DNA of 41,722 nt from Candidatus Omnitrophota bacterium (GTDB lineage: Bacteria > Omnitrophota > Gorgyraeia > 2-01-FULL-45-10). A program made the position numbers and the translations under genes. Each line of letters opens with the position of its first letter. The first letter of the stretch is position 1. The notes under the pieces are model-generated. The model saw only the letters and a program-made list of their open reading frames with translations, did no database searches and was not told the DNA's origin. Below are positions 23,103 through 34,647 of this stretch, piece by piece. The DNA lies in assembly GCA_017993955.1 (NCBI GenBank), contig JAGOLR010000009.1:1-41722 (forward strand), in the 5' to 3' direction.

Positions 23103-23179
23103 GGGGACGTAGTTCAGTTGGTTAGAACGTCAGATTGTCGATCTGAAGGTCGCGGGTTCGACCCCCGTCGTCCCCGCCA
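23103..23179 (+). tRNA. tRNA-Asp (GTC)
   Basis: Complete cloverleaf: acceptor GGGGACG pairs with CGTCCCC, the anticodon arm TCAGA-TTGTCGA-TCTGA gives anticodon GTC, the T-loop is GGTTCGACC, the discriminator is G and CCA is encoded. Its last 19 bases plus the following T form the left attachment repeat of the integrated element, and the tRNA remains intact on this side. Confidence 0.97.
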
Positions 23180-23180
23180 T
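23161..23180 (+). other. attL, left attachment repeat within tRNA-Asp
   Basis: 20 bp identical to 34628-34647. The match stops at both sides (G versus A to the left, A versus T to the right). It covers the tRNA T-arm to CCA end, the usual crossover region for tRNA-specific tyrosine integrases. Confidence 0.9.
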
Positions 23181-23494: not shown

Positions 23495-23631
23495 TGGGTT
23501 GTTTTTGTTTATTAAGAGTCTGCTATATAGTATTGCGAAGTAAAGCAACTTGGTAGAAATAAGAAAACCAGCGTTGCTTGAATCATTCTTTTCAAGAGAG
23601 TAAGTCAAGCTGGATGCAGGGAGGCAATGTT

Positions 23632-24021
23632 ATGAGGGTGCTGAATAAAGAGCATTTACAAGAAACTGGCAATTGGCTAAGTAATCTTCTCGCTTGGAAT
23701 AGATATTGCACCTTTACATTCCCAGCTGATAGGACGCCAACCTCAGCGAATAGGGCGGTTGGAGAGTTTATACGGCGTCGTGACCCTAAAGCGAAGTATG
23801 TCCTTGTGGCTCAATTACATAGGTTCAGGCGTTGTGCTCATGTTCATGCCTTGGTGCAGGGGCTAACGCAATATAGATGTATGCATCTTGTGAAGGCATG
23901 GGAAAAAAGGTGTGGGGGTTTTGCGAGAATATATCCGTATGAGCCGCAAAAGGGCGCAGCATATTATCTCGTTAGGCATCTTCAGTGTGAATCAACGGAG
24001 CTTGACTTTGGGAACATGTAA
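23632..24021 (+). CDS. Probable HUH-type Rep endonuclease (rolling-circle replication initiator-like)
   Basis: A 129-aa protein. The start is chosen at the ATG with GGGAGG 6-7 nt upstream, rather than an ATG 54 nt earlier. Motif order fits a minimal HUH endonuclease: YCTFTFP (motif I-like) near residues 25-30, AHVHALVQG (His-hydrophobic-His) near 69-75, and AAYYLVRHL near 107-115 as the candidate catalytic tyrosine motif. Rep proteins of this kind nick a replication origin and remain joined through the tyrosine. The usual lysine of YxxxKY is an arginine here, and the protein is short, so activity is uncertain. Confidence 0.55.
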   Translation: MRVLNKEHLQETGNWLSNLLAWNRYCTFTFPADRTPTSANRAVGEFIRRRDPKAKYVLVAQLHRFRRCAHVHALVQGLTQYRCMHLVKAWEKRCGGFARIYPYEPQKGAAYYLVRHLQCESTELDFGNM

Positions 24022-24132
24022 ATAGGTAATATTGGAGCATTAGAATAAACTAAAATCATAACTTATTGTGAAGCAATGCATTATATCATCAACAACTGGC
24101 TTTATTAACCCGTAAAGAGGATGGTGATTGCC

Positions 24133-24765
24133 ATGAAAGCGATTATCTATGCACGATGTAGCACTGACGAGATAAAACAAGATGTTGAAGTCCAGCTAAA
24201 GGAGCTTAGGCGCTACTGCGATGCTTACGGATGGCAGCATGATGAGGTGTTTGAGTATTGTAGTGGCTACAAAGGCGACCAGCCTAAACTGGCTGAGGTT
24301 ATAGAGAAGATACGCCTTAAGCACTATGATGTTATGCTCGTCCACTCAATAGACAGGTTTAGCCGAGAGCATCCGAGCAAGACCGATGAAACGCTGAATC
24401 GTATAGTGCATCTCTACAAGTGCAGGTTTATCAGCCTCGCTGAGGGTATTGATTCCGAAGACGACGTGAAGTGGCACATAGTCAGGCACCTCTTTACATA
24501 CTTCGCCAATATGTTCAGTCGTAACCTGAGCATTAAGGTCAAAAACGGCATTAAGAACAAGAAGGATAAAGGGCTATACTCAGGAGGTCGCCCGAAGAAG
24601 GATATCGACTACAAGAGGTTATTGGACATAAAAGGGACAGGTTTATCAGTGCGTAAGGCAGTGGAGGCGTATAATAGCGGTCTGCCACGGAAGATGTGGA
24701 TTAGCAAGTCAAAGATGGCTCAGGCATTATCAGCACAGATAGCTGAGCAAGGCAAAAGCTATTAA
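24133..24765 (+). CDS. Serine recombinase (resolvase/invertase family)
   Basis: Site-specific recombinase of about 210 aa. The catalytic serine is S10 in YARCSTDE, with R8 nearby; the second core motif HSIDRFSRE (D74, R75, R78) is intact. The long helix region (FSRNLSIKVKNGIKNKKDKGLYSGGRPKK) leads to a C-terminal helix-turn-helix (GLSVRKAVEAYN). The size fits a small resolvase rather than a large serine integrase. A start 12 nt upstream is possible but has the ribosome site abutting the ATG. It could resolve multimers of the circular form or invert DNA. Confidence 0.85.
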   Translation: MKAIIYARCSTDEIKQDVEVQLKELRRYCDAYGWQHDEVFEYCSGYKGDQPKLAEVIEKIRLKHYDVMLVHSIDRFSREHPSKTDETLNRIVHLYKCRFISLAEGIDSEDDVKWHIVRHLFTYFANMFSRNLSIKVKNGIKNKKDKGLYSGGRPKKDIDYKRLLDIKGTGLSVRKAVEAYNSGLPRKMWISKSKMAQALSAQIAEQGKSY

Positions 24766-24781: not shown

Positions 24782-24809
24782 TTGACCTTGCTATTTATCA
24801 CGCTATAAG
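24782..24809 (+). promoter_or_regulatory. Promoter of the three-gene PIN cassette
   Basis: TTGACC (24782-24787), a 16-bp spacer and TATAAG (24804-24809) lie between the recombinase stop and the first cassette gene. The predicted start near 24816 gives a leader of about 34 nt, with AGGA ahead of the ATG. Confidence 0.5.
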
Positions 24810-24849
24810 GTAAAATTAAACAGCTGCATTTCCAACCCCAGGATATAAA

Positions 24850-25464
24850 ATGGATGAACTGGTAAAGCATCTTAAAGAACCATTTTTTTATTATGTCAAT
24901 TTCATTACAGACGTTTTTCTTTCTAAGTCAGAATTTGATAATTTTAAAGCTATTGACCAAAAGAAGAGAAAGTATTTTAGTCTCCAGAAATTATCTCAAA
25001 GCAAGGATGATAAAGCCCTCTGTCGTTTCAAAATTACGTTAACATCTATTGATAAAGATACTGATTTTAATGAGAAAGATTTCTTGGAGGTTTTCGAATA
25101 TTTTAAGAGCATCTTTAAAAAGGAGAGGATTAGTTGCTTTGCACGAATCGTCTATCATTATCCAGAACAAGAGTTTAAGACAGACCCTCCCATACCAATA
25201 GTTTTGGAAGAAAAAGACGAAAAGGTTGGCAAGATAGAATTGACTGGGGTTAGATTGGCTTTTTCCAAAGCTGAGCGAGGCATTGATTCAGTAATTCTGG
25301 ATTTACAGGAATGCGAAAAATGCAAAGCGAAAGACTATTTTATAACGGTTCTAATGTCTAAATCAACTATTTGTGGTATTTCGGAGATAACGCAACTTCT
25401 ATCTGAGGCAAAAACTTTTTCTGGAAAATTCATAATCAAAACAAAGGCAACAAAAGATGCTTAA
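24850..25464 (+). CDS. Uncharacterised protein, first gene of the PIN cassette
   Basis: 204 aa, not recognised. It is rich in Lys, Asp and Phe, with no signal peptide or membrane helix. The N-terminal half looks alpha-helical (MDELVKHLKEPFFYYVNFITD; EVFEYFKSIFKKE); the C-terminal half has beta-like stretches (KIELTGVRLAFSK, GIDSVILDLQ) and a CEKC pair (C155, C158). Its end overlaps the next gene by 8 bp and it has its own promoter, so the three genes behave as one operon. Base composition is clearly more A+T-rich than the housekeeping genes. It may be a sensor or partner of the nuclease, but this is only inference from position. Confidence 0.7.
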   Translation: MDELVKHLKEPFFYYVNFITDVFLSKSEFDNFKAIDQKKRKYFSLQKLSQSKDDKALCRFKITLTSIDKDTDFNEKDFLEVFEYFKSIFKKERISCFARIVYHYPEQEFKTDPPIPIVLEEKDEKVGKIELTGVRLAFSKAERGIDSVILDLQECEKCKAKDYFITVLMSKSTICGISEITQLLSEAKTFSGKFIIKTKATKDA

Positions 25465-25819
25465 TAAGACGCATAGTTCAAAAATTGATACTGATATAAA
25501 ACTGGATGTATGGTATGTAAAAGAAGACAAAGACGTTATGCTTATCAGCGACGAAGATATAAAACTGACTACAAGGAAGCAAATATTGGAAGGGTATTTA
25601 AAAAGTGTTAGTGAGAAATTGATTAAGCATAATGAAGTTGAACGTATCAGGACAAAATTGAAATCAAGATATAGAGTGCTTGTTGATAACGCTTTGAAGG
25701 ACGATGATAAGTATAAAAAAATGAAAGAGGAGTTAAGTAAGCATCCCCTAAGTATAAATGATAAAAAATTCATCCAAGAAGACTCAAGCGGTGATTTGTA
25801 TGTCAGCAACGATTTATGA
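25457..25819 (+). CDS. Uncharacterised charged protein, second gene of the PIN cassette
   Basis: 120 aa, not recognised. It starts 8 bp before the previous stop, and the PIN gene starts within its last 20 bp. The middle (TTRKQILEGYLKSVSEKLIKHNEVERIRTKLKSRYRVL) should be helical and basic, and the ends are acidic. Size and position directly upstream of a PIN nuclease fit an antitoxin, but there is no recognisable DNA-binding fold at either end, so that reading is weak. Confidence 0.65.
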   Translation: MLNKTHSSKIDTDIKLDVWYVKEDKDVMLISDEDIKLTTRKQILEGYLKSVSEKLIKHNEVERIRTKLKSRYRVLVDNALKDDDKYKKMKEELSKHPLSINDKKFIQEDSSGDLYVSNDL

Positions 25820-26462
25820 TTTCAAAGAAGTTAGCCTACCCGATTTTAAATTTCCAGAATTTATTTTTCTTGATACAAGTTTTTTAATCAATGCATTTTG
25901 TCCAGTCCCTGAAAAACCTGGACTTCCATCGGATACAAATGAGAAATGCTCTGAATTTTTAGATGTTCTGAAGAAAAACGCCCGTGAAGGTAAGACCTGC
26001 CTAATTACCTCTGACCTAGTGGTGAATGAGTTTTTTCATTTTATTTTAAAAGAAAAGGCAGAGTATGTGGAGCTGGAAGGTGCTTTTAAGAATCATCGGC
26101 ATAGCTACAAGAAGAACCCATCAGTTGAGTTAATGAAAGACCACCCAGATTTAATAGGTAAATATCATTCGTCGCTTACTCTATATAAAGAGTTAATGAT
26201 AAAGACTCCTATAGATATATTGGAACCCAATGATTTAGGTGGCTCTGAAAATCAAGCCGCTACATTTGTTGGTGGTATGATGGATGCTATAAAGAACTAT
26301 AACGTTTTACCATCCGATGCGTGTAATATTGCGATTTCAAAGCTTCTCGAAATAGATACTTTTGTCGTGTTAGATAAAGACTATTACCGTGTTGATGGTA
26401 TTAACGTTTATACTTGCTTTTCAAAAATGGCAAGGACTTGCAGTATTTGCAAACCGTCGTAA
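25800..26462 (+). CDS. PIN-domain ribonuclease-like protein
   Basis: About 220 aa from the ATG at 25800, chosen because GGTGAT precedes it and upstream residues are non-homologous in character. The four PIN acidic positions are visible: D near residue 24 in FIFLDTSFLINAF, E near 76 in LVVNEFFHFIL, D near 172 in LPSDACNIAIS, and D near 191 in FVVLDKDYY. The domain is larger than in VapC toxins (about 130 aa) because of a long middle insertion (about residues 85-160). PIN proteins are Mg-dependent RNases, often toxins. A C-terminal CSIC pair is also present. Confidence 0.8.
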   Translation: MSATIYDFKEVSLPDFKFPEFIFLDTSFLINAFCPVPEKPGLPSDTNEKCSEFLDVLKKNAREGKTCLITSDLVVNEFFHFILKEKAEYVELEGAFKNHRHSYKKNPSVELMKDHPDLIGKYHSSLTLYKELMIKTPIDILEPNDLGGSENQAATFVGGMMDAIKNYNVLPSDACNIAISKLLEIDTFVVLDKDYYRVDGINVYTCFSKMARTCSICKPS

Positions 26463-26674: not shown

Positions 26675-26890
26675 ATGCAAGCCACAAACGGGAAAGTATA
26701 CACTACGGTTCAAGTTGCAAGAAAACTCGGTGTTCATAAGAACACCGTTTTTTATTGGTTGAAGACCGGGAAGGTCAAAGAACCTATGCGGGATAGCCTT
26801 TTCAACGGGCGTATCTGGACAGAGGAAGACTTGACAGAATTGACGAATATGAGGCAGAAAGGACTTATCTCTAATGGCAAACCAGAATAA
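26675..26890 (+). CDS. Small MerR-type HTH protein, likely controller of the RM operon
   Basis: 71 aa comprising essentially one winged-helix DNA-binding domain: YTTVQVARKLGVHKNTVFYWLKTGKV (helix-turn-helix) followed by GRIWTEEDLTELTNMRQKG, as in MerR/excisionase-like folds. It has no effector domain. Its end overlaps hsdM by 17 bp, so it is the first gene of the RM operon. A palindrome over its own promoter suggests it acts like a restriction controller protein, though it is not the XRE-type C-protein family. There is no clear ribosome site; the mRNA is nearly leaderless. Confidence 0.75.
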   Translation: MQATNGKVYTTVQVARKLGVHKNTVFYWLKTGKVKEPMRDSLFNGRIWTEEDLTELTNMRQKGLISNGKPE

Positions 26891-28424
26891 CGATAAAGAA
26901 AAATCCCTAGAGTCGTGGATGTGGGATTCGGCTTGTGCTATACACGGAGCTATTGACGCTCCAAAATACAAAGACTATATCTTGCCGCTCGTATTCGTTA
27001 AGCGTCTCTGCGATGTGTTTGATGATGAGGTTGAGCGTATCGCTAATAAAGCGGGCAATAAGACGAATGCTATCAAACTTATTGATAAAGACCCCAAGCT
27101 TGTCCGTTTCTATCTTCCTATACGAGCCAAAGACCTTGAGAAGGACGATACCTGGTCAGTAATACGGACTCTTACCAAGAAGGTCGGCGAAGAGCTTACC
27201 AGTATTATGCGGGAGATAGCCAAGTATAATCCTCGCATAAAGGGAATCATTGACCGTATCGACTTCAATGCTACTACACACGGTCAAAGAGAGATATCTG
27301 ATGATAGCCTAATTAAGCTTATAGAGGGTATCAGCAAGAAACGGCTGGGATTGGATGATGTTGAGCCAGATATTATTGGCAGAAGCTATGAGTATCTTAT
27401 CCGTAAGTTTGCCGAAGGTGGTGGTCAGAGTGCAGGTGAGTTCTATACGCCAAGAGAAGTTGGTATGATTATGGCTATGATTATGAACCCAGAGCCGGGT
27501 ATGGAGATATACGACCCCTGCTGCGGTTCTGCCGGGCTTCTCATAAAGTGCGAGCTGGTTTTGGACGAGAAGATGAAATCCAAGAAGTATTCGCCCCTTA
27601 AGCTTTATGGGCAGGAGTCGATACCTACAACCTGGGCTATGGCGAATATGAATATGGTTATTCACGATATGGAAGGCGAGATTGAGATAGGTAATACGAT
27701 GCTTGACCCAAAGTTTCGTGTCGGTAATAAGCTCAGGAGATTCGATGTAGTTGTTGCTAATCCTATGTGGAATCAGGATGTCTTTACTGAGAAGGACTAC
27801 GAGAACGATGAGTTAGAGCGATTCGGGGCGGGTATTCCTCCAAAAAGTAGTGCCGACTGGGGCTGGGCACAGCATATATTGGCACACCTTACGGATAGTG
27901 GAAGGGCAGCAATAGTTCTCGATACGGGGGCTGTTTCAAGGGGGTCTGGCAACGCTGGAAGCAATAAGGAGAAGGATATCAGGAAATGGTTTATTGACCA
28001 AGACTTGGTTGAAGGTGTTTTATTTCTTCCAGATAATCTTTTTTATAATACTACTGCCCCTGGTATTGTGTTATTTCTTAATAAACACAAACCGAGCAAC
28101 AGAAAAGATAAGCTGTTCTTGGTGAATGCTTCATTAGAGTTTGAGAAGGGCTCTCCCAAGAACTTTATTCCCGAAGCCAATCAGAAGAAGATAGCCGATG
28201 CGTTTCTCAAGTGGAAAGAGATAGAGAAGTTCAGTAAAGTCGTCAGCAAGGATGAGGTTATCAAGAACGACTACAATATTTCCCCATCCCGATATATCCA
28301 TACCGCTGATGCCGAAGAGCACCGTCCGATAGCCGAGATAGTCGAAGAGCTGAACGAGCTTGAGAATACGGCGAAGCAGGTTGATAAGGATTTGAAGGAC
28401 ATACTGAAGAAGATAGGGTGCTAG
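26874..28424 (+). CDS. hsdM: Type I restriction-modification DNA methyltransferase subunit
   Basis: 516-aa N6-adenine methyltransferase subunit. The HsdM N-terminal helical domain (KSLESWMWDSACAIHGAIDAP) is followed by the SAM-binding motif I in YDPCCGSAGLL, and catalytic motif IV reads ANPMW where most relatives have NPPF/Y. AGEFYTPREVG precedes motif I as usual. It works with HsdS to methylate the target and with HsdR to restrict unmodified DNA. The hsdS ATG directly follows its stop. Confidence 0.95.
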   Translation: MANQNNDKEKSLESWMWDSACAIHGAIDAPKYKDYILPLVFVKRLCDVFDDEVERIANKAGNKTNAIKLIDKDPKLVRFYLPIRAKDLEKDDTWSVIRTLTKKVGEELTSIMREIAKYNPRIKGIIDRIDFNATTHGQREISDDSLIKLIEGISKKRLGLDDVEPDIIGRSYEYLIRKFAEGGGQSAGEFYTPREVGMIMAMIMNPEPGMEIYDPCCGSAGLLIKCELVLDEKMKSKKYSPLKLYGQESIPTTWAMANMNMVIHDMEGEIEIGNTMLDPKFRVGNKLRRFDVVVANPMWNQDVFTEKDYENDELERFGAGIPPKSSADWGWAQHILAHLTDSGRAAIVLDTGAVSRGSGNAGSNKEKDIRKWFIDQDLVEGVLFLPDNLFYNTTAPGIVLFLNKHKPSNRKDKLFLVNASLEFEKGSPKNFIPEANQKKIADAFLKWKEIEKFSKVVSKDEVIKNDYNISPSRYIHTADAEEHRPIAEIVEELNELENTAKQVDKDLKDILKKIGC

Positions 28425-29594
28425 ATGGCAACTATTGAAACGAAGGAATTGGGCGTTATTCCAGAGGACTGGGAATTAAAAAAACTCGGCGACATAGCTG
28501 ACAACTTTGATAAAAAGAGAAAGCCTATTAGCGGTCTTGAGAGAGCAAAAATTCAAGGAGATTATCCTTACTGCGGTGCCAACGGAATTGTGGATTATAT
28601 AAACTCTTATATTCTCGATGGTGAATATGTTCTCTTGGCTGAGGATGGCGGTTATTGGGGAAAGTGTGAGAGTTCAAGCTATATTATGAAAGGAAAATTT
28701 TGGGTTAATAACCACGCCCACATTCTTTTAGCCAAAGACAGAGTGACAACGAACAACTTTCTGATGCACATACTAAACTATCTTAATCTTGACCCTTATA
28801 TTGGTGGAGACGCAAGGGGTAAGTTGACTCAAGCAATTATGAAATCTCTGTTAATACCGCTCCCTTCCTTTGTAGAGCAATGTAATATAGCCCATATTCT
28901 TTCCACAATTCAATCTGCCGTAGAGACCCAAGAGAAAATCATAAAGACGACGACGGAGCTCAAGAAAGCCCTGATGCAAAAACTTTTTACTGATGGATTG
29001 CACGGAGAGTCGAAGAAAAAAACCGAAGTAGGTTTAATCCCACAAAGCTGGGAAGTCGTTGAATTAAATGATGTCTTTCAGCTGACAAGCGGGAAGGAGC
29101 GACCATCTCAACTGTCTCCAGATAGAAGTAATGGCTATATTTATCCCGTATATGGTGGCAATGGCATATTGGGTTATTCAAAAGAGTGTCTTATTGATTT
29201 TCAGACTATTGTTTTAGGCAGAGTGGGAGTATACTGCGGTAGTATATTTCTTACCAGCGGAAGAAGCTGGATATCTGATAACGCTTTATATGCAAAGAAA
29301 ATGTTGCGACAATGCAATCTTTCTTACTTATCCATTGCTTTACAGCTATTGCAGTTGAATAAATTTAAAAATACAGGGGGTCAACCTCTTATATCTCAAT
29401 CTATTGTTTACTCGAAAAAGATAGCGATTCCGAGCCTACAAGAACAGAATGAACTTGCAAATGTATTTGCCAATATCGAAAAATCTCTGAATAATGCCCA
29501 AGAAAAAGAAGTTAGATTGCAGGAACTGTTTAAATCTATGCTCCACAATCTTATGACGGGACAAATCAGGGTTAAGGATATAAGGTTCTCATAA
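28425..29594 (+). CDS. hsdS: Type I restriction-modification specificity subunit
   Basis: 389 aa with two target-recognition domains, each introduced by the same pattern (GVIPEDWELKKLGDI at residues about 10-24 and GLIPQSWEVVELNDV at about 206-220) and each followed by a conserved helix (IIKTTTELKKALMQKLFTDG and the C-terminal KEVRLQELFKSMLHNLMTGQ). The two domains set the two halves of the recognition sequence. The first TRD contains GEYVLLAEDGGYWG and the second GILGYSKE. The recognition site cannot be deduced by eye. Confidence 0.93.
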   Translation: MATIETKELGVIPEDWELKKLGDIADNFDKKRKPISGLERAKIQGDYPYCGANGIVDYINSYILDGEYVLLAEDGGYWGKCESSSYIMKGKFWVNNHAHILLAKDRVTTNNFLMHILNYLNLDPYIGGDARGKLTQAIMKSLLIPLPSFVEQCNIAHILSTIQSAVETQEKIIKTTTELKKALMQKLFTDGLHGESKKKTEVGLIPQSWEVVELNDVFQLTSGKERPSQLSPDRSNGYIYPVYGGNGILGYSKECLIDFQTIVLGRVGVYCGSIFLTSGRSWISDNALYAKKMLRQCNLSYLSIALQLLQLNKFKNTGGQPLISQSIVYSKKIAIPSLQEQNELANVFANIEKSLNNAQEKEVRLQELFKSMLHNLMTGQIRVKDIRFS

Positions 29595-29595
29595 T

Positions 29596-32511
29596 ATGTC
29601 AGAACGGACTGGTGTCCAAAAGCCAATACTTAAATACGCTCAAGACCTGGGCTGGGAGATAGTCTCTCGTGCCGATGCCGAGACTCTGCGTGGATTTAAC
29701 GCTATTGGCGGAACGGTGCAGGAGCGAGCCAAAAACTCATCTTTATTCTTCGACGATATTCTCTACCAGAAAGCCAAAGAATTTAATCCCAAGCTTGAAG
29801 ATAAGAAGGGAGAACTCGTCAGAAAGCTTAGTGTATTGCAGAACGACATTAAAGGTAATAGGGATTTCTTGGAATATCTTAAAGGCAACAAGACATTCTT
29901 TTCCAGAAAAGATAACAGAGAATACAACCTTACTCTTATCAACTTTACGGAACCAGACAAGAATGTATATAAAGTAACGGACGAGTATTACTTCAATAAT
30001 GGTCGTTATGGAAATCGTGAAGATATAGTATTTCTTATCAATGGCATACCTATCGTTGTCGTAGAATGCAAAAGTGCCACAGTTGATGAGGCTATCGCCA
30101 TAAGCGTTGACCAGCTTCGGCGTTATCATTCCGAAACCCCAGAGATGATGGTTCCCCAGCAGATGTTTACCGCTACCGAATCTCTTGGATTCTCATATGG
30201 CGTCACTTGGAACCTGAGCAGAAGGAGCATATTTAACTGGAAACACGAAGAGGTTGGTAGGCTTGAGGATAAAGTAAAGTCGTTCTTCGCTAAAGAACGC
30301 ATACGTGCTTATCTTAAAAACTATATCTTATTCGTTGAAAAAGAAGAGGAGCTTAATAAGTATATCCTAGCACAGCATCAGGCACACGCTATCGAGAAAG
30401 TCATAGAGCGGGCACACGATGCTAAGAAGTATCGGGGGCTGGTATGGCATACTCAAGGTTCAGGCAAGACCTTTACGATGATAAAGATAGCCGAGACGCT
30501 TTTTAAAGCACCTGAATCCGAAAAGCCTACCATCTTGATGATTATTGACCGCAATGAGCTTGAAGACCAGCTCATACGCAACCTTAAATCTGTTGGTATA
30601 GACCACGCAGAAAGAGCGGACAGGATTGATGCTCTCAATAGGCTTCTTAAGGATGACTATAGAGGCATCCTAGTTACGATGATACACAAATTTCAGGGTA
30701 TGCCTGCCAATGTAAATCTTCGGAAGAATATCTATGTCCTTATTGATGAAGCACATCGCACAACATCGGGCGACCTTGGTAATTACCTGATGGCGGCTAT
30801 CCCCAACGCTACCTTCATTGGGTTCACCGGGACTCCAATCGATAAGACAGCTTATGGTAGGGGGACGTTCAAGACCTTTGGCATCGACGACAAGAAAGGG
30901 TATCTAGATAAGTATTCTATCGCCGATTCTATTAAAGACGGCACGACTGTAGACCTATTTCATTCATTCGCTCCTAACAACTTACTGGTTCCCAAGGATA
31001 TTCTTGAAAAGGAGTTCTGGAGCCTTGCAGAAGCCGAGGGCGTTAGTGACATAGAAGAGCTCAATAGGATTCTCGAGAGGGCGATAAATACTCGCAATTT
31101 CCTGAAGGGCAAAGAACGAGTTGATAAAGTCGCTAAGTTCGTTGCAGACCACTATCAGAACTATGTTGAATCGCAGGGCTACAAAGCATTCCTGGTCGGT
31201 GTTGATAGAGAAGCCTGTGCATTATATAAGAAGGCGTTAGACAAGTATTTGCCGCCAGAGTATTCCGCCGTAGTTTACACAAGCGGACATAATGACCCGC
31301 CTCATCTTAAAGAGTTCTACTTATCAGAAGACGACGAGAAGAAGCTCAGGAAAGCATTTGTTAAACAAGACACCCTTCCTAAGATTCTTATCGTGACCGA
31401 GAAGCTTCTTACTGGATACGACGCACCTGTCCTTTATGCGATGTATCTGGATAAACCGATGCGTGACCATACGCTTTTACAGGCAATCGCACGAGTGAAT
31501 CGTCCTTATGAGAACGAAGAAAAGAATATGAAGAAGCCTCACGGTTTTGTTCTTGACTTCATAGGCATATTTGACAGGCTGGAAAAAGCTTTGGCATTTG
31601 ATTCTGAGGAGGTGAGTGCGGTTATCAAAGACCTCAATCTCCTGAAGGGCATATTCAAGAAGAGAATGGAGAATAATGCCCCTGCTTATCTAAAGCTGGT
31701 ATCCCGACCGATGACAGATAAGGACACGGATAAGCTTATAGACTATTTCAAGAACGAGTCGAGGAGAAAAGAGTTTTATAAGCTCTACAAGGAGCTGGAA
31801 TCTCTGTATGAGATTATTTCTCCCGATGTTTTTCTTCGCCCATATGTCGAAGACTATGGCTTTCTTACTGAGATATATTTCATCGTCAGAAATGCCTTCG
31901 CCAAAAAGATTAATGTTGATAGAGAATTCTTGCGGAAGACCAACCAATTGGTAAAGGATAGGATAGGCATAGACGGGATAACTGGCGGAGTCGAAATATT
32001 TCCTATCAATGAAGACACGCTAAAGACTATAAAGAACAAGAACCAGGGTAACAATGTAAAGATTATCAACCTCATCAAGAGTATAGAAAAATATATAGAC
32101 GAGAACTCAGGCGATATCACTCTTATTCCGCTTGCGACACGGGCTCAAGAGGTCGAAGAGAAATACGAAAGACGGCAGGAAGAGACAGCGAGGGTCTTGG
32201 AGGAGTTGACAGCACTTATAGAGAATGAGCTCGAACGAAAGAAGGAGCAGAAGGCGAAAGGATTCGATGACCTGACATCCTTTGTATACAGCGTTCTCGT
32301 GGATAAGAAGATTAAGATGCCTGAAGAGACAGCCAAAGAAATACGCACTAAGTTCGATGATTTTTTGCATTGGCGGTCAAGTAAGCAGGAAGAACGAGAT
32401 TTGAGACTGGCTCTATATGAAGTATTGAATTCCGTGGTAGGTGATTTTGACATATGCGTTCCTGTCATTGACCATCTGTTTGAGATGTTAGAGAAGGCAT
32501 CCGGGGATTAA
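29596..32511 (+). CDS. hsdR: Type I restriction endonuclease subunit R
   Basis: 971-aa motor and nuclease subunit. The N-terminal nuclease has IPIVVVECKSA, the ExK part of the PD-(D/E)xK site. SF2 helicase motifs follow: HTQGSGKTFTMI (Walker A, near residue 290), LIDEAHRTTSG (DEAH box, near 382), GFTGTP (motif III) and QAIARVNRPY (motif VI). A coiled-coil C-terminus (KYERRQEETARVLEELTALI) contacts the methylase. It starts 1 nt after hsdS. All key motifs are intact, so the system appears functional. Confidence 0.95.
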   Translation: MSERTGVQKPILKYAQDLGWEIVSRADAETLRGFNAIGGTVQERAKNSSLFFDDILYQKAKEFNPKLEDKKGELVRKLSVLQNDIKGNRDFLEYLKGNKTFFSRKDNREYNLTLINFTEPDKNVYKVTDEYYFNNGRYGNREDIVFLINGIPIVVVECKSATVDEAIAISVDQLRRYHSETPEMMVPQQMFTATESLGFSYGVTWNLSRRSIFNWKHEEVGRLEDKVKSFFAKERIRAYLKNYILFVEKEEELNKYILAQHQAHAIEKVIERAHDAKKYRGLVWHTQGSGKTFTMIKIAETLFKAPESEKPTILMIIDRNELEDQLIRNLKSVGIDHAERADRIDALNRLLKDDYRGILVTMIHKFQGMPANVNLRKNIYVLIDEAHRTTSGDLGNYLMAAIPNATFIGFTGTPIDKTAYGRGTFKTFGIDDKKGYLDKYSIADSIKDGTTVDLFHSFAPNNLLVPKDILEKEFWSLAEAEGVSDIEELNRILERAINTRNFLKGKERVDKVAKFVADHYQNYVESQGYKAFLVGVDREACALYKKALDKYLPPEYSAVVYTSGHNDPPHLKEFYLSEDDEKKLRKAFVKQDTLPKILIVTEKLLTGYDAPVLYAMYLDKPMRDHTLLQAIARVNRPYENEEKNMKKPHGFVLDFIGIFDRLEKALAFDSEEVSAVIKDLNLLKGIFKKRMENNAPAYLKLVSRPMTDKDTDKLIDYFKNESRRKEFYKLYKELESLYEIISPDVFLRPYVEDYGFLTEIYFIVRNAFAKKINVDREFLRKTNQLVKDRIGIDGITGGVEIFPINEDTLKTIKNKNQGNNVKIINLIKSIEKYIDENSGDITLIPLATRAQEVEEKYERRQEETARVLEELTALIENELERKKEQKAKGFDDLTSFVYSVLVDKKIKMPEETAKEIRTKFDDFLHWRSSKQEERDLRLALYEVLNSVVGDFDICVPVIDHLFEMLEKASGD

Positions 32512-32513
32512 CT

Positions 32514-32816
32514 GTGGGTAAGTGGAAAAATAAGCAAGAGTTCAGAAATAGGGTCTATCACTTTGCCCAAGAGATAGACATACCCGTAAGGTCATTATAT
32601 ATAAGACCTATGAGGAGTAAGTGGGCATCGTGTTCTACAGGTGGTAATCTAAATTTTAATGATGAGCTACTTGGGCTGGACAAGGAGATAGGCAACTATG
32701 TCATTGTTCATGAGCTATTGCATTTCCGTGTCCCTAATCACGGTAAATTATGGAAAAGCCTGATGCGGGCATATCTGGGAGATTACGAGAAAATAGAAAG
32801 AAGGCTAAAGAGCTAA
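32514..32816 (+). CDS. YgjP/SprT-like zinc metallopeptidase (DUF45)
   Basis: 100 aa starting at GTG, 2 nt after the hsdR stop. HELLHFRVPNHGKLW is the zinc site (HExxH plus a downstream His), preceded by the family's MRSKWASCSTGGNLNFN. DUF45 proteins often follow hsdR in type I operons; their job there is unknown, possibly proteolytic control of HsdR. This one is short compared with stand-alone YgjP (about 170 aa or more), consisting of little more than the catalytic core. Confidence 0.88.
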   Translation: MGKWKNKQEFRNRVYHFAQEIDIPVRSLYIRPMRSKWASCSTGGNLNFNDELLGLDKEIGNYVIVHELLHFRVPNHGKLWKSLMRAYLGDYEKIERRLKS

Positions 32817-33295: not shown

Positions 33296-33484
33296 TTGAC
33301 ACTAATAAATGCGAAGATTATTTCGGAACGATACAGCATACCTCTCGGGACTGTCTATTACTATGTCTCAAAAGACCAGATACCCCATTATCATATCCGT
33401 GGACGAATAAAGTTTAATCCAGCCGAAATTGAGGTATGGATTAAGCAGGGTAAATCAGCATATGCCAACGAGAAAATTTGGTGA
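33296..33484 (+). CDS. xis: Excisionase-like small HTH protein
   Basis: 62 aa with a TTG start preceded by GGGAGG at 33284-33289. AKIISERYSIPLGTVYYYVSKDQIPHYHIRGRIKFNPAEIEVWIKQGK is a MerR/Xis-type winged helix with a recognition helix (PLGTVYYYVSK) and a wing ending in EIEVWI. It overlaps the integrase gene by 23 bp. Such proteins bend attachment-site DNA and bias integrase towards excision. Confidence 0.82.
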   Translation: MTLINAKIISERYSIPLGTVYYYVSKDQIPHYHIRGRIKFNPAEIEVWIKQGKSAYANEKIW

Positions 33485-34541
33485 CATATATAGACGGTGC
33501 GACAGCCCGTTCTGGTGGCTCTGGTATTATGATTCATCTGGTAAGCGTAAGCACGAAAGCACGCAGACCGCAGATAGAGCCATAGCACGTGAGATATTAC
33601 GTAGCCGAATAACGGAGTTTGACCAATTGAGACACAATATAAAGGAGGTTAGCGATATGCCATACAAGCACTTCTCGGAAGGGTTTCTGAGACACTATGA
33701 AGCACGTTATCCATATGAGACCTACAAGTCACACAAGAGCGCAGTTAATGAGTTCACTAAGTTCTTGGAGTCCTCAGGCATAACACGGTTGTCTGAGATT
33801 ACAACCGCAGTAGTTAATAATTATGTTACCTATTTGCGGACTACAAAAGGTGACCGTGCAAACACATGTAATAATCACCTGAAGAATCTGCAAACGCAGT
33901 TTAACTTTGCCATTAAGAATGGAGGGCTTATGAAGAACAATCCAGCTAAGGATGCTAAAAAGGTGGAGATAAACGACGCCAAGAAAAAAGGCGCATTATC
34001 AGCAGAGGAATATCAACGATTTATGGAAGTCGCCGAGGAAAGACACCTGTTCTACTACCCTATATTCTACACCTTCTTACACACAGGACTACGTTTTACA
34101 GAGCTCATAAGCCTCAGGTGGGAGGACATAGACTGGAAGGCAAAGACATTGTGGGTGATGAAGCCGAAGGGCAAGAAGAAGCCAGAGCCTATATCAATAC
34201 ACGACAGCTTAATAAAGACACTTCAGTCATTACCCAAACGAGGCGACTATGTGTTTATGGATGAGGATGGCAAGCCGTTTTGTGCGAGGACACGTAAACT
34301 GGTAAGACGGTTGAAGGACATATTAAAGGAAGCTGGCATCACAAGTATAAGCACACTACATGAGCTTCGCCATACATACTGTAGCCAACTATTCAGGGTA
34401 GGTTTCAACCCAAGAGAAGTGCAGAGGCAGATGAGGCATAGCGAATTAGGTGTTACTGAGGGCTATGCCCATATATTTATGCCAGAATATAACAAGAAGA
34501 TTGACCGATTACAGCGATTAGATAAACGGAAAAAAGGTTAA
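33462..34541 (+). CDS. int: Tyrosine site-specific integrase
   Basis: About 359 aa from MPTRKFGDIYRRCDSPFWW; an ATG 33 nt upstream is entirely within xis and less likely. The N-terminal arm-binding segment is followed by a SAM-like core-binding domain (residues about 60-150). The catalytic domain has R in HTGLRFTELISLRW near 210, the basic beta-hairpin WVMKPKGKKK, LHELRHTYCSQLF near 300, MRHSELG and the nucleophile Tyr in TEGYAHIF near 335. All catalytic residues are present. It lies 87 bp from attR and presumably recognises the tRNA-Asp 3' end. Confidence 0.95.
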   Translation: MPTRKFGDIYRRCDSPFWWLWYYDSSGKRKHESTQTADRAIAREILRSRITEFDQLRHNIKEVSDMPYKHFSEGFLRHYEARYPYETYKSHKSAVNEFTKFLESSGITRLSEITTAVVNNYVTYLRTTKGDRANTCNNHLKNLQTQFNFAIKNGGLMKNNPAKDAKKVEINDAKKKGALSAEEYQRFMEVAEERHLFYYPIFYTFLHTGLRFTELISLRWEDIDWKAKTLWVMKPKGKKKPEPISIHDSLIKTLQSLPKRGDYVFMDEDGKPFCARTRKLVRRLKDILKEAGITSISTLHELRHTYCSQLFRVGFNPREVQRQMRHSELGVTEGYAHIFMPEYNKKIDRLQRLDKRKKG

Positions 34542-34627: not shown

Positions 34628-34647
34628 ACCCCCGTCGTCCCCGCCAT
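34628..34647 (+). other. attR, right attachment repeat
   Basis: 20-bp exact copy of the tRNA-Asp 3' end at 23161-23180. Downstream sequence, including the terminator at 34776, is presumably the original 3' flank of the tRNA gene. Confidence 0.9.

Follow-up and report, generated by a model that had tools for sequence, protein, structure and literature searches.

What might three tightly overlapping genes, two of them without recognisable relatives, be doing beside a type I restriction-modification (RM) operon in an uncultured bacterial phylum? The genes lie in a stretch of 41,722 nucleotides (hereafter the window) from a Candidatus Omnitrophota bacterium (assembly GCA_017993955.1, contig JAGOLR010000009.1) and form a co-directional trio of 1.6 kb, P1-P2-PIN (Table 1). 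Here, we propose that the trio is a tripartite toxin-antitoxin-like (TA-like) module, tightly overlapping and moving horizontally, a reading to which we give about an even chance.

Table 1. The P1-P2-PIN trio and the features of its host element in the window
Feature	Position	Strand	Description and basis
tRNA-Asp(GTC) gene	23103-23179		insertion target of the element; 3' end repeated at 34628-34647
attL	23161-23180	.	tRNA-Asp(GTC) 3' end plus one base; 20-bp exact direct repeat
Small serine recombinase, resolvase N-terminal domain	24121-24765	+	PF00239, E 1.8e-24; phrog_125 DNA invertase
P1	24850-25464	+	204 aa, orphan family, first gene of the trio; no family match, homologue in CP070837.1
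P2	25457-25819	+	120 aa, orphan family, second gene of the trio; antitoxin candidate by position
PIN-domain protein	25800-26462	+	220 aa, effector candidate; weak PF01850 match plus bridge protein
Type I RM operon hsdM-hsdS-hsdR with YgjP-like metallopeptidase	26874-32816	+	co-cargo of the trio
Tyrosine integrase	33429-34541	+	adjoins attR; PF00589, E 8e-27; phrog_1 integrase
attR of the 11.47-kb element	34628-34647	.	20-bp exact repeat of 23161-23180

The trio consists of three real, conserved genes in a fixed order. It recurs, in the same order, in Candidatus Omnitrophota bin103 (CP070837.1, a metagenome-assembled genome, G050), with protein identities to the window of 34% for P1, 32% for P2 and 47% for PIN, and tblastn E-values of 6e-31, 3.5e-13 and 1.4e-48, respectively, among the loci searched. 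Adjacent genes overlap by 8 bp (P1/P2) and 20 bp (P2/PIN) in the window, and by exactly the same lengths in CP070837.1. The second of these values takes ATG 25800 as the PIN start; an alternative ATG at 25758 would give a P2/PIN overlap of 62 bp. ATG 25800 is preferred because conservation with the CP070837.1 homologue begins at M[SP]ATIY, which is kept from 25800 on, with nothing conserved upstream of that point. Between the two genomes, codon position 2 is better conserved than position 3 throughout (0.69/0.43 in P1, 0.65/0.34 in P2 and 0.70/0.40 in PIN). Chance reading frames are thus excluded, since the proteins are kept in a second genome, position 2 exceeds position 3, and the overlaps are identical. 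That these overlaps persist at 32-47% protein identity suggests selection on operon architecture, and hence that the coupling by overlap may itself be selected.

The preliminary description had listed the same three overlapping genes, and its coordinates and overlaps hold. The low G+C that it reported is likewise borne out: the trio has 32-36%, below most of the remaining element (38-46%, with an HTH gene at 33%) and the left flank (48.7%), which fits a foreign module. Less can be said for the promoter it assigned to the trio, which rests on one sigma-70 promoter-like match (9/12, at 24788-24816, 5' of P1). Such matches are about as frequent in shuffled sequence (11 found in the region, 7.3 +/- 2.6 expected), so a promoter is not established.

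The trio is cargo of an 11.47-kb element integrated in a tRNA-Asp(GTC) gene, as defined by 20-bp direct repeats and a nearby tyrosine integrase. The element contains a small open reading frame with an HVHAL motif, a resolvase-type serine recombinase, the trio, the type I RM operon with its YgjP-like peptidase, an HTH gene and the integrase. The trio does indeed sit between a serine recombinase and the RM operon, as previously described; this recombinase is a protein with a resolvase N-terminal domain, and it is more probably the tyrosine recombinase that serves as the integrase of the element. The 147-aa HVHAL reading frame (23578-24021), which later carries YYLVRHL, has no family match in Pfam or PHROGs and may encode a small replication initiator of the HUH type for the element.

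The copy in CP070837.1 lies on a different element. There, the trio is flanked by a DUF5677 gene and a large serine recombinase of 545 aa, and upstream of it lie genes for a GmrSD_N-HNH nuclease protein and an adenine methylase of the EcoRI type (PF13651, E 1e-138). Repeats of CCGGGGACGCCATC, which corresponds to a tRNA-Arg 3' end plus two bases, lie at 737, 11016 and 14425 of this locus (L007). With a tRNA-Arg target, its own repeats and a large serine recombinase, this element differs from that of the window. The same cassette is thus carried by two unrelated elements that differ in recombinase and tRNA target and that both include restriction-type genes. The proposed linkage to restriction cargo in a mobile element is in this way seen twice, and a survey of the recurrence of the trio beside defence genes comes to these two complete copies. 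With two complete copies, the association with restriction and defence genes is suggestive and not statistical.

Two further features of the CP070837.1 locus may be recorded. The three copies of the tRNA-Arg 3' end suggest a tandem array of segments integrated by serine recombinases, the second of which includes a phosphoglycerate-mutase-like gene (assigned by eye). In addition, positions 469-748 hold a tRNA-Arg(TCT) gene with its anticodon loop split by a 203-nt insert, removal of which leaves a perfect tRNA. The terminal T of the 5' exon and the terminal G of the insert are those of a group I intron; the insert has no intron match in Rfam.

How widespread is the trio? PIN carriers number 3 among 384 genomes of the class and P1 carriers 2 among 384 genomes of the phylum, and a second phylum draw with a three-row PIN profile added just two weak PIN matches. 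In total, the overlapping draws (up to 384 Omnitrophota genomes each, with fewer distinct genomes than their sum) gave two complete trios and one truncated PIN. The truncated copy, in genome G092, consists of the C-terminal 107 PIN residues, 63% identical to the window PIN, at the first bases of a contig whose far end does not hold the missing half; this copy was cut by the assembly. Wherever context is complete, P1 and PIN are seen solely within the trio. No relatives of either were found in plasmid, phage or IMG/VR collections, where five IMG/VR pattern matches reached at best E 0.2 and were rejected, and interrupted weak matches in two genomes (G056 and G346) were dropped as further copies. 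The scan of genome contigs used two peptide patterns and is not exhaustive.

The third gene of the trio can be firmly assigned, from sequence comparison, as a predicted PIN-domain (PF01850) protein, via a bridge protein and its acidic residues. Direct matches to PF01850 fall just below the cut-off of 23.6 bits (21.7 bits, E 3e-4, in the window; 22.2 bits in CP070837.1). The bridge protein, a PIN of another Omnitrophota genome (G019, locus L032), matches PF01850 at 1.7e-10 (41.9 bits) and aligns with the trio PIN over 173 columns in hhalign (92% probability, E 5e-7). The acidic residues D25, E77, D173, D192 and D194 show no variation in the available sequence, which in the PIN at L009 covers just the C-terminal ones. 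The full acidic set, the insertion and the larger size than VapC that were noted earlier are all confirmed. The window PIN carries the insertion ELMKDHPDLIGKY and a C-terminal C-x7-C-x2-C, a tail that the trio PINs have in common (one residue shorter in CP070837.1). An insertion around [HK]P[DE]LI is also found in larger Omnitrophota PINs (G019/L032 and G171/L036), which resemble the trio PIN in their V/I-Y/W-T terminus as well. The G019 PIN matches the trio PIN along its full length in profile comparison and differs from it in context, preceding a proteasome-like gene and lacking P1 or P2. At L034 7786-9312 of G019, the gene after a large PIN gene is proteasome-like (Ntn hydrolase, 268 aa).

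In contrast to this known effector class, neither P1 and P2 nor the arrangement of the three genes matches anything in the libraries searched. P1, P2 and their homologues have no match above chance in Pfam, NCBIfam, PADLOC, PHROGs or PDB sequences, which agrees with the earlier statement that they belong to no known family. Had the trio been unconserved, or had its partners belonged to housekeeping or phage structural families, the earlier reading of a defence or toxin-antitoxin module would have been refuted; the trio recurs, and Pfam and PHROGs gave no match to either partner. P1 has a conserved Q-x-C-x2-C-K-A motif and matched no domain and no DNA-binding family. A SecB-like chaperone, as in toxin-antitoxin-chaperone systems, was considered for P1 and rejected on the lack of a Pfam match, the sole test. 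P2 is not markedly charged (25 K+R and 24 D+E), and neither a known antitoxin fold nor a DNA-binding family was recognised in it. Structures predicted from two-sequence alignments were too poor to use (mean pLDDT 49.8 for P1 and 51.6 for P2); in Foldseek against the PDB these low-confidence models gave nothing below E 0.001, and their matches were given no weight.

In light of these findings, what might the role of the trio be? In a tripartite TA-like module, the PIN protein would be a metal-dependent RNase that arrests growth when free, and P2, as the small gene directly 5' of PIN, would be an antitoxin that binds it. P1 would be the third component, either a regulator comparable to omega in omega-epsilon-zeta and to PaaR in paaR-paaA-parE, or a sensor controlling PIN release. 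On mobile elements such a module could stabilise the element, act as an abortive phage defence beside RM genes, or both. In its favour are the fixed order and overlaps, the invariant acidic residues, the two unrelated carrier elements with restriction-type genes, and the presence of more distant PINs of the class in TA-like operons. One of these (L037), weakly similar to the trio PIN (14% probability in profile matching), has an overlapping 61-aa antitoxin-like gene directly before it, and another (L024), of VapC type, is the last of three genes in an operon, after TIGR04255 and a 76-aa gene. Against it stand the lack of an antitoxin fold in P2, a PIN larger than VapC with a conserved insertion and Cys tail, and a P1 that is domainless by search. 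By analogy, the small gene overlapping the PIN start and the status of the trio as mobile cargo support the TA-like reading, which we regard as the best reading of the trio. A plain P2-PIN addiction module, concerned with element maintenance only, in which P1 either regulates transcription or is a hitchhiker with no relation to it, would likewise draw on the TA-like pairs formed by PINs of the same class and on the integration of both carriers. We consider it improbable: P1 and its 8-bp overlap are conserved in both copies, which makes a hitchhiker unlikely, and P2 has no TA family match.

The main rival to a tripartite TA-like module is a true defence function outside the TA class, which seems to us on the unlikely side. 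P1 and P2 would form a sensor complex that responds to a sign of infection by recruiting PIN, or activating it, against phage RNA; PIN would lack constitutive toxicity, and a classical antitoxin would be absent. Two orphan partners, one of them exceeding the typical antitoxin in size, a large PIN and the occurrence of the trio on two mobile elements, each time beside restriction-type genes, are consistent with such a function, and the C-x2-C of P1 and the Cys tail of PIN could together form a joint metal site. Yet the trio matches no PADLOC model of known anti-phage defence systems, its linkage amounts to two copies, and a small overlapping gene before PIN is typical of TA loci. As a tentative possibility, two new protein families in the trio may detect infection and govern a large PIN RNase, which would make it a three-protein defence system not described before and so far seen solely on Omnitrophota mobile elements. 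PIN domains also function in RNA maturation, and every copy of the trio is on a mobile element or at a contig end, so that a role in RNA processing or element regulation (such as excision or copy-number control), with no toxin or defence function, might be entertained. However, the recombination machinery of the two carriers is unrelated, which argues against element-specific regulation, and we hold this last explanation to be very doubtful. If our proposal is true, it would add two orphan protein families that keep a PIN nuclease under control; it would also give an uncultured phylum, whose phage defences are little studied, a mobile module for defence or addiction.

Other Omnitrophota operons offer a parallel in layout. 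TIGR04255 genes at seven loci (L018, L019, L021-L024 and L026) are followed by a small, mostly overlapping gene and then by a third gene whose product varies: a VapC-type PIN, a 95-aa protein, or a protein of 185-218 aa in which a C-D or C-C motif is conserved. Three of these operons (L018, L019 and L024) resemble the trio in having a first gene of ~230-250 aa, an overlapping small second gene and a variable third, and P1, in its low-confidence model, has a roughly similar order of helices and strands to TIGR04255 proteins. Membership of P1 in TIGR04255 was nevertheless rejected: hhalign gave a probability of 0.2%, not significant and no better than the control of PIN against TIGR04255, and the TIGR04255 model did not detect P1 of the window or of CP070837.1 (no NCBIfam match at E up to 5-10; G000 and G050 negative). 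TIGR04255 is not named in the literature searched, and the operons that it leads are possibly a modular TA or defence family in their own right.

How, then, does the trio compare with known systems? Like VapBC, it has a PIN with acidic active-site residues, a small overlapping gene directly upstream and a mobile context. Unlike VapBC, its PIN is 220 aa long and has a Cys tail and a conserved HPDLIxKY insertion, P2 and its homologue match no antitoxin family where VapBC has a known-family antitoxin next to the PIN gene, and a further conserved gene, P1, heads the operon. The known tripartite TA loci omega-epsilon-zeta and paaR-paaA-parE (PMC4803016) run in the order regulator-antitoxin-toxin, which is the candidate order of the trio. 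The trio differs from these in its effector, a putative PIN nuclease and not a zeta kinase or ParE, and no sequence relation to them was found. Like tripartite type II TA systems, it is a three-gene operon, and its gene order and overlaps would fit such a system if P1, P2 and PIN, as the candidates for these roles, were regulator, antitoxin and toxin.
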